Below are positions 13,882-14,457 of a stretch of 57,167 nucleotides of DNA, one piece after another. Below the pieces are notes generated by a model. That model ran no database searches and was not told the origin of the DNA. It saw nothing but the letters and a program-made list of their open reading frames with translations. Numbering within the stretch: position 1 is the stretch's first letter; the number at the start of each line of letters is the position of its first letter. Location of the stretch: NCBI GenBank assembly GCA_017937405.1, contig JAGBDS010000028.1, positions 1-57,167 of the forward strand, given 5' to 3'. A program made the position numbers and the translations under genes. The stretch is from Oscillibacter sp. GTDB lineage: Bacteria > Bacillota > Clostridia > Oscillospirales > Oscillospiraceae.

Positions 13882-13933
13882 CGATGCATCCCGTCCTTTT
13901 CTCGCACTGTATCGTTTGTCTGAGCAGTTTTTT

Positions 13934-13962
13934 ATTATATGCTAAAGATATAGTAAGCACAA
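13934..13962 (-). promoter_or_regulatory. Promoter of the LysR gene
   Basis: On the minus strand TTGTGC, 17 bases, TATAAT, about 50 bases upstream of the ATG at 13881. Confidence 0.65.
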
Positions 13963-13974
13963 GTTAATATGTAT

Positions 13975-13987
13975 TTCACATTTTGAA
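13975..13987 (+). promoter_or_regulatory. Candidate LysR box upstream of micro-ORFs
   Basis: TTCACATTTTGAA is a T-N11-A dyad (TTCA/TGAA arms), the classic LysR-type binding pattern. It overlaps a possible -35 (TTGAAG at 13983) with a weak -10 (TAATTG at 14006) for the rightward micro-ORF transcript. Short motif, so chance occurrence is possible. Confidence 0.4.
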
Positions 13988-14042
13988 GAAAGAGGTTTAT
14001 TATCATAATTGTTCCAAGGGAAACACGAAGGAGGCGAGAGAA

Positions 14043-14093
14043 ATGAAAAAGCTATCTGTGATGCTCGAGTCCTATTACCACATGTTCGGCTGA
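14043..14093 (+). CDS. 16-residue micro-ORF, copy 1
   Basis: Encodes MKKLSVMLESYYHMFG, ending in TGA. GAAGGAGG stands 9 to 10 bases before the ATG, a strong ribosome site. Copy 2 follows 37 bases later and differs at only two residues (E9Q, S10A) while eight other codons differ synonymously, so the amino-acid sequence appears to be under selection. The peptide has a KK start and hydrophobic residues at 4, 7, 8, 11, 12 and 15, which would form one face of an amphipathic helix; there is no signal peptide or transmembrane-length run. I know no family with this sequence. Signalling peptide, membrane-active peptide, or regulatory translated ORF are all possible. Confidence 0.75.
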   Translation: MKKLSVMLESYYHMFG

Positions 14094-14130
14094 CCGCATA
14101 AACCCGACAGAATAAAGGAGATGACATGAA

Positions 14131-14181
14131 ATGAAGAAGCTGTCCGTAATGCTGCAGGCTTACTACCATATGTTCGGTTAA
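14131..14181 (+). CDS. 16-residue micro-ORF, copy 2
   Basis: Encodes MKKLSVMLQAYYHMFG, ending in TAA. AAAGGAG lies 10 bases upstream of the ATG; another ATG at 14126 is out of frame and stops after two codons. It is a diverged duplicate of the micro-ORF at 14043: 14 of 16 residues match. The sequences around the two copies (spacer, ribosome site) are not similar, so conservation is confined to the coding part. A strong terminator ends the transcript about 60 bases later with no larger gene in between, so these are not leaders of an operon downstream. Confidence 0.75.
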   Translation: MKKLSVMLQAYYHMFG

Positions 14182-14215: not shown

Positions 14216-14242
14216 ATGAATATGGATCATCAAAAGAGGTAG
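14216..14242 (+). CDS. Possible 8-codon micro-ORF
   Basis: ATG at 14216 behind GAAGGG encodes MNMDHQKR and ends inside the terminator stem. It has no resemblance to the two 16-residue peptides and could be chance; listed only because it shares their transcript and has a plausible ribosome site. Confidence 0.2.
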   Translation: MNMDHQKR

Positions 14243-14280
14243 GCAGTATCCGTTCGGGATGCTGCCTGCCTTTCTGTTTT
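14238..14280 (+). terminator. Terminator of the micro-ORF transcript
   Basis: 14-bp stem GGTAGGCAGTATCC / GGATGCTGCCTGCC (two G-U pairs), 5-base loop, then TTTCTGTTTT. It closes a transcript of roughly 250 bases carrying only the micro-ORFs. Confidence 0.9.
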
Positions 14281-14428: not shown

Positions 14429-14457
14429 TTAACTTTTACGAAAGGCGCTGTTATAAT
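14429..14457 (+). promoter_or_regulatory. Promoter of gap
   Basis: TTAACT, 17 bases, TATAAT, in an AT-rich stretch 54 bases before the gap ATG. The rest of 14281-14510 holds no reading frame with a ribosome site that I can support. Confidence 0.65.

Follow-up and report, generated by a model that had tools for sequence, protein, structure and literature searches.

SR1 of Bacillus is a small RNA with a peptide, SR1P, that is tied to GapA, and the leader peptides of attenuators are short ORFs with a good ribosome site that lie before a terminator. Glutamine synthetase is inactivated or stimulated by the small cyanobacterial proteins IF7 and IF17 and by the 23-residue sP26 of Methanosarcina (PMC7760959). 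In Gram-positive bacteria 8-10 residues of the C-terminal tail of GlnR occupy the active site of the same enzyme, where they are bound as distorted helices (PMC9249791). VcdP, a 29-residue product of VcdRP, acts on citrate synthase (PMC8672173), and Spot 42 encodes SpfP, a peptide of 15 residues (PMC11188072).

The locus described here lies in a window of 57,167 nucleotides (the whole stretch of DNA that was analysed) from a 2.44 Mb draft genome of Oscillibacter that is 89% complete. It is best placed among systems in which tiny regulatory proteins come from a small transcript, here in tandem and linked to a LysR-type regulator (Table 1). Like IF7, IF17, sP26 and the GlnR and TnrA tails, the Oscillibacter peptides are very small and may be linked to nitrogen; the binding of an enzyme belongs to those systems and is only guessed at here. 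Their 16 residues set them apart from IF7 (65 residues) and IF17 (149 residues), and whereas the glutamine synthetase regulators are controlled by NtcA, a glutamine riboswitch or MerR-type GlnR, they are linked to a LysR protein. With Spot 42/SpfP and VcdRP/VcdP they share a short transcript (predicted here), a tiny and predicted intracellular peptide and a metabolic setting. Spot 42 and VcdRP also base-pair with mRNAs, and the Oscillibacter locus differs from both in its tandem near-identical ORFs, its LysR linkage and its phylum. The window peptides precede a GAPDH gene, as might be expected of an SR1P-like system, but their length differs from that of SR1P and gap adjoins peptides only in the window and in Oscillibacter valericigenes An890 among the loci searched; a GAPDH-linked function was for this reason rejected as a general role. 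As in attenuator leaders, the micro-ORFs have good ribosome sites and lie ahead of a terminator. Unlike such leaders, they occur as two to three near-identical copies, have no fixed downstream gene and are conserved over the whole peptide.

Table 1. Features of the micro-ORF locus and its flanks (positions in the window).
Feature	Position	Strand	Remarks
LysR-type regulator gene, 318 aa	12925..13881	-	Divergent from the micro-ORFs
Conserved 45-base box, probable LysR binding region (predicted)	13932..13976	+	Matrix score 51.6 bits
Promoter-like site TTCACA-17-TATTAT, micro-ORF transcript	13975..14003	+	Promoter scan; -10 is 21 nt past the box
Micro-ORF 1, MKKLSVMLESYYHMFG	14043..14093	+	16 codons; same peptide in An890
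Micro-ORF 2, MKKLSVMLQAYYHMFG	14131..14181	+	16 codons; An890 copy differs by 1 amino acid
Mini-ORF MNMDHQKR	14216..14242	+	8 codons; stop codon within the terminator stem
Intrinsic-terminator-like stem-loop and T tract	14235..14280	+	17 pairs; stem sequence recurs in G007 (An890) and G025
Promoter-like site of gap	14429..14457	+	Promoter scan

The two 16-codon ORFs reported in the sequence-only reading are present in tandem where it had placed them, with starts 88 bases apart, and are preceded by the ribosome sites GAAGGAGGCG (micro-ORF 1) and TAAAGGAGATG (micro-ORF 2) that it had noted. A recount of the codons agrees with its tally of 6 identical, 8 synonymous and 2 changed (E/Q and S/A). 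Its 14-bp terminator is replaced by a stem of 17 pairs, G-U pairs included, at 14235-14273. One terminator-like site was found in the region against 0.6 expected. Promoter-like sites in the region are not above shuffled sequence (2 found, 1.8 expected), and only conservation lends weight to the one assigned to the micro-ORFs. The mini-ORF at 14216-14242 was absent from the sequence-only reading; frame ends similar to its own are seen in An890 (NMDHPKR) and in G025. The next plus-strand gene is gap, which encodes a type I GAPDH scoring above the NCBIfam cut-off. A 17-base pattern for YYHMFG, searched with at most one mismatch, matches only the two micro-ORFs in the 2.44 Mb genome and the control gave 0 matches, so the pair is not a product of chance. 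The same tandem locus is carried by An890, a member of the same genus, and is thus held by two independent assemblies.

The pattern of base changes between the window and An890 demonstrates selection on the predicted peptides. In copy 1 all 8 changes are synonymous; copy 2 has 1 amino-acid change and, besides it, 3 synonymous ones. Random placement of equal numbers of changes gives a mean of 8.6 amino-acid changes, and 0 of 20,000 simulations gave one or none, as observed. Within the window 11 bases differ between the two micro-ORFs, and these alter 2 amino acids where 7.3 would be expected (0 of 20,000 simulations). The pooled pN/pS is 0.11 for 8 pairs from several lineages, 2 of them from within one locus; single pairs vary, and three have just 1-2 changes altogether. 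Some pairs within the family show little synonymous bias (2 vs 3 changes for g98_1/g98_2; pN 0.26 and pS 0.33 for g253/g402). Compared with An890, the DNA of the ORFs is 82% and 90% identical; identity falls to 60% in the 5' leader and 57% in the spacer, and is 73% in the stretch downstream of ORF2, which indicates that the bases around the ORFs have diverged more. Both this divergence and selection on the peptide had been claimed beforehand, and both claims hold. Nor did the outcomes named in advance as contrary appear: the peptides occur in 20 further genomes, the changes between the window and An890 are biased to synonymous ones, and the frames are intact across the homologous loci with one exception, a frame-shifted start in G025.

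Peptides of 16-27 residues that carry the core L..YY..F or a variant close to it occur in 21 genomes, all of a single bacterial family. In 20 of these the gene 5' of the peptides encodes the LysR protein; in the 21st (G314) the peptide is at the end of one contig and the LysR gene at the end of another. With the LysR protein as bait, 4 of 86 genomes of the genus match at E <= 1e-80 and 29 of 400 of the family at E <= 1e-60. The DNA upstream of 32 LysR loci contains micro-ORFs of 16-27 codons in 16 cases and none in 15, and is cut in one (L041). Profile A1, made from 19 peptides, gives 21 matches in 13 of 300 family genomes (E <= 1.4e-4; next 0.045), most of the 13 being profile members by construction or near copies. 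The new one is G250, in which the peptide adjoins the LysR gene (71% over the 45 residues present). Profile searches found no further peptides in 18 relatives of G250. Among 18 relatives of G098 they found three more peptide genomes, G1136, G1137 and G1139, all with the LysR gene upstream; these three and G250 are the four genomes that the profile brought in without having been built from them, and in all four the peptides lie beside LysR. The 21 genomes thus comprise 13 found by profile A1, five by LysR alone (G025, G468, G399, G370 and G402) and the three relatives of G098.

Outside the family, an order-wide LysR search, which scored at most five candidates per genome so that members may be missed, matched 6 of 394 genomes, all of them family members. 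A class-wide profile search covered 321 genomes, with the window and two or more further members of its family among them; below E 0.02 it gave the window and nothing else. Five weaker class-level matches (E 0.023-0.044) were rejected as chance, since no LysR gene (E <= 1e-5) is present at any of the loci and two have an internal stop. Five pattern matches with 3 mismatches in five family genomes were likewise attributed to chance, the reversed-pattern control having matched in six genomes, as were matches of the pattern in Bizionia and Fluviicola. A phage or viral source was sought with a single peptide and a single pattern, and neither gave a match. As far as sampled, the peptide family therefore appears to be confined to one bacterial family.

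It had been stated that no named family has this sequence, and this is borne out in the curated families and the literature that could be scanned. NCBIfam has 0 matches for both window peptides (padded with X), and Pfam has 0 for the 10 of 20 members of profile A2 that reach 20 residues; a match of one of 10 scanned A2 members to the NCBIfam SP_0009 family (E 0.014) was taken as chance. At the Rfam gathering score the window has no match, and in 16 loci the only matches are to T-box and tRNA and lie outside the micro-ORFs; weak sub-threshold Rfam matches in five loci were taken as chance. Among solved chains there is no sequence match to the peptides except a designed coiled coil (E 0.048). 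Four peptide strings were unmatched in full text, and an unnamed entry in subscription papers or small-protein catalogues is possible. These results support the view that the peptide family is undescribed.

The LysR protein lies below the curated cut-off for every NCBIfam model among the matches listed (25 of 53), the nearest of which are AlsR and CidR, with GltC and NAC behind them. AlsR and CidR are known for overflow metabolism, and their proximity points away from the glutamine field. The features of a LysR-regulated divergent gene, a conserved box and a conserved promoter geometry, are both found. The box matrix was built from 28 loci, the window site included, and contains one poor site (L035); in the window its next-best plus-strand site scores -0.3 against 51.6 bits. 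L019 and L097 fit the consensus box poorly (22/45 and 24/45). The distance from the end of the box to the -10-like hexamer is 21 nt in 28 of 36 LysR loci, with or without peptides, and 22 nt in L036. The other seven of the 36 were set aside: L041, where the upstream DNA is cut, and six loci in which the GTATTT motif is missing (L027, L031, L034, L035, L048 and L049). Peptide loci account for 19 of the 28 (of 20 that are readable), loci with asnB, glutamine synthetase or pyrG for 6 (of 9), and other loci for the last three. Since the geometry is the same in peptide and glutamine-gene loci, one regulator clade appears to drive both outputs. The tie to the LysR protein that had been proposed is supported by this spacing and by the linkage in 20 of 21 genomes, and the micro-ORF transcript is probably controlled, and activated, by that protein. 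Peptide presence needs 4 changes on the LysR tree, in which 10 of 29 forks are open, the root is at the midpoint and L041 is labelled a peptide row though its peptide is on another contig; a single origin of the peptides with losses is possible. Second LysR-box sites lie a few kb from the LysR gene on the minus strand of L126 (4937-4981, 55.5 bits) and L127 (6498-6542, 43.6 bits), where they precede a MoxR-like gene, followed in G1137 by a VWA-like gene (names assigned by eye).

The constant linkage would also suit a peptide that is the ligand or feedback partner of the LysR protein, a role with a precedent in the binding of the 15-residue SpfP to Crp, a transcription regulator (PMC11188072). 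However, 6 of the 9 glutamine-gene LysR loci keep the box-promoter geometry without a peptide, so the regulator works peptide-free there, and such a partnership is very unlikely. Peptide signalling and the supply of a LysR ligand, both raised in the sequence-only reading, are not supported, as no finding speaks for either.

The regulator is associated with glutamine genes in part of its clade, a gene context that was out of view in the sequence-only reading. Of the 15 peptide-free LysR loci, 9 are on asnB, a GSIII-like glutamine synthetase gene or pyrG: five are divergent to asnB (with GSIII-like gene and pyrG following in four, and the contig ending in the fifth), two to pyrG-guaA and two to the GSIII-like gene. 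These nine form one side of a 97/95 branch of the LysR tree, and the other six show no glutamine genes. Near the peptides, glutamine or nucleotide genes occur in 5 of the 21 genomes. In G1136, G1137 and G1139 purF follows the peptides directly on the same strand, in G250 guaA, purA and a piece of pyrG are nearby, and in G468 GSI-like, gltB-like, GSIII-like and asnB genes lie within 12 kb. The other 16, the window included, have no such gene in the flanks examined (3-57 kb, some one-sided). On these counts part of the regulator clade has a firm glutamine link, and the peptide loci have a partial one. The asnB, pyrG, guaA and purF products exceed the NCBIfam cut-offs, whereas the GSI-like (344 of 429 bits) and gltB-like (271 of 1047) proteins of G468 and the purA product of G250 (382 of 402) fall below them. 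The GSIII-like protein has no NCBIfam match at 1e-30 and is named from its length and from the Pfam glutamine synthetase match of the homologue in the window's own genome. In that genome GSI and asnB-GSIII, on other contigs, are without a LysR box in the matrix scan. A T-box-like leader (AGGTGGCACCGCGG) precedes its asnB-GSIII (C51; L074 4870-5140); Rfam gives no report for it at the gathering score, whereas L025 and L030 are reported.

The position of purF suggests an alternative in which the peptides are leaders acting in cis, their translation controlling the downstream gene by attenuation or nascent-chain arrest, with the gene-less loci being rearranged leaders. In the window and An890 gap is likewise next on the same strand, and the mini-ORF stop falls in the terminator stem. 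However, the downstream gene is not the same in the homologues (gap, purF, a convergent symporter-like ORF in G025, and others), gap has a promoter-like site of its own, no run of codons for a single amino acid fits a downstream pathway, and selection spans the whole peptide in the window pair. More generally, the neighbours after the peptides change between lineages and a terminator is present in most loci read, which indicates that there is no fixed downstream gene. A cis leader is thus plausible for the purF loci but unlikely as the general explanation.

It is also conceivable that the transcript regulates mainly as an RNA, base-pairing with mRNAs, with the peptides secondary or serving a dual function. 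Several LysR loci consist of a short transcript and terminator without a micro-ORF, and in genus g63 a small hairpin whose loop reads UCCAUCC is common to 9 leader sequences, whether or not peptides are present. Nevertheless, the window RNA gives no better a fold than shuffled sequence does (z -0.99), and no part of the locus is better conserved between the window and An890 than the ORFs. In the g63 hairpin one pair shows a two-sided change and 4 cells are broken, so covariation is a poor test of it. A mainly RNA-based role is accordingly considered quite improbable. The g63 hairpin (GUGAU-CCAUCC-AUCAC type; 9 predicted pairs) lies behind the LysR box in L121, L122, L123, L023, L024, L029 and L050, and also in the minus-strand leaders of L126 and L127. 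It is found before purF, before the MoxR-like gene (MoxR ATPase by eye; no NCBIfam match at 1e-30) and in gene-less transcripts. Its occurrence with or without peptides before purF and the MoxR-like gene suggests that an RNA element is involved there.

As helices, the peptides are more amphipathic than shuffled versions (mean z +2.06 for 24 related peptides; p < 0.05 in 12 of the 24). The amphipathic pattern that had been claimed thus holds for the family, but not for the two window peptides taken individually (p 0.067 and 0.119). Together with the lysine start it might suggest that the peptides act on membranes or resemble toxins, such as the toxin of a type I toxin-antitoxin pair; type I toxins are typically small hydrophobic peptides from short transcripts. 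Sixteen residues are, however, too short to span a membrane, a scan of both strands finds no antisense promoter beside the ORFs, and the constant link to one LysR clade does not fit; a toxin is highly improbable.

The best reading, held tentatively and with appreciable doubt, is that a LysR-activated transcript yields trans-acting micropeptides that tune glutamine use. The LysR protein would activate a promoter for a transcript of ~270 bases without a larger gene, from which two near-identical 16-residue peptides would be produced in quantity. These would remain intracellular, fold into short amphipathic helices and bind an abundant protein, on which they would act in trans; translation, helix and trans action are all predictions from sequence. 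Such an abundant trans-acting peptide is favoured by the lack of a larger gene in the transcript, by multiple copies behind strong ribosome sites and by neighbours that differ from locus to locus. The likeliest field for the target would be the glutamine economy, with glutamine synthetase or a glutamine-consuming amidotransferase such as AsnB, PurF, GuaA or PyrG, and the GlnR tail, sP26 and VcdP serve as precedents; a glutamine enzyme is a guess, and the gene context of the regulator makes it the best first one. More speculatively, and with a low probability, one LysR regulon in gut Oscillospiraceae-type Clostridia might have its output swapped by lineage between glutamine enzymes (glutamine synthetase, AsnB, PyrG and PurF) and peptide arrays, each peptide 16-27 residues long, by which such enzymes would be bound and tuned after synthesis. 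If true, this would be a principle of nitrogen control in these bacteria.

The locus shows that strong selection can be read from sequence alone for peptides of 16 residues, a size usually skipped by gene finders. In a major group of gut Clostridia it opens to testing a LysR regulon with ties to glutamine and nucleotide genes, and natural loci with one copy, several copies or no peptide can be compared. At least two copies are present in 9 of the 21 genomes (the window, G007, G025, G468, G399, G098, G340, G335 and G1137), and the number per locus ranges from one to at least three. G335 has four profile places, two of which, at contig ends, look like one copy, giving at least three copies; near-perfect tandem repeats of a 25-residue micro-ORF unit (~140 bases) break the assembly there (L045 1-520 and the end of L088). 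G025 (L018) has three tandem copies, in which the start of copy 3 is frame-shifted and copies 2 and 3 form one 48-residue frame with the motif twice. In L023, L024 and L019 a different short ORF (MEQNILKHVVGARCGNCQTSCHNM, MEQNVLRHVVGAGHGNCQTSQYAR, MKKIVLTTVDCTPWFVGKQASCLNI) lies ahead of the YY peptides as the first of the transcript, and the two close relatives differ in the end of its frame.
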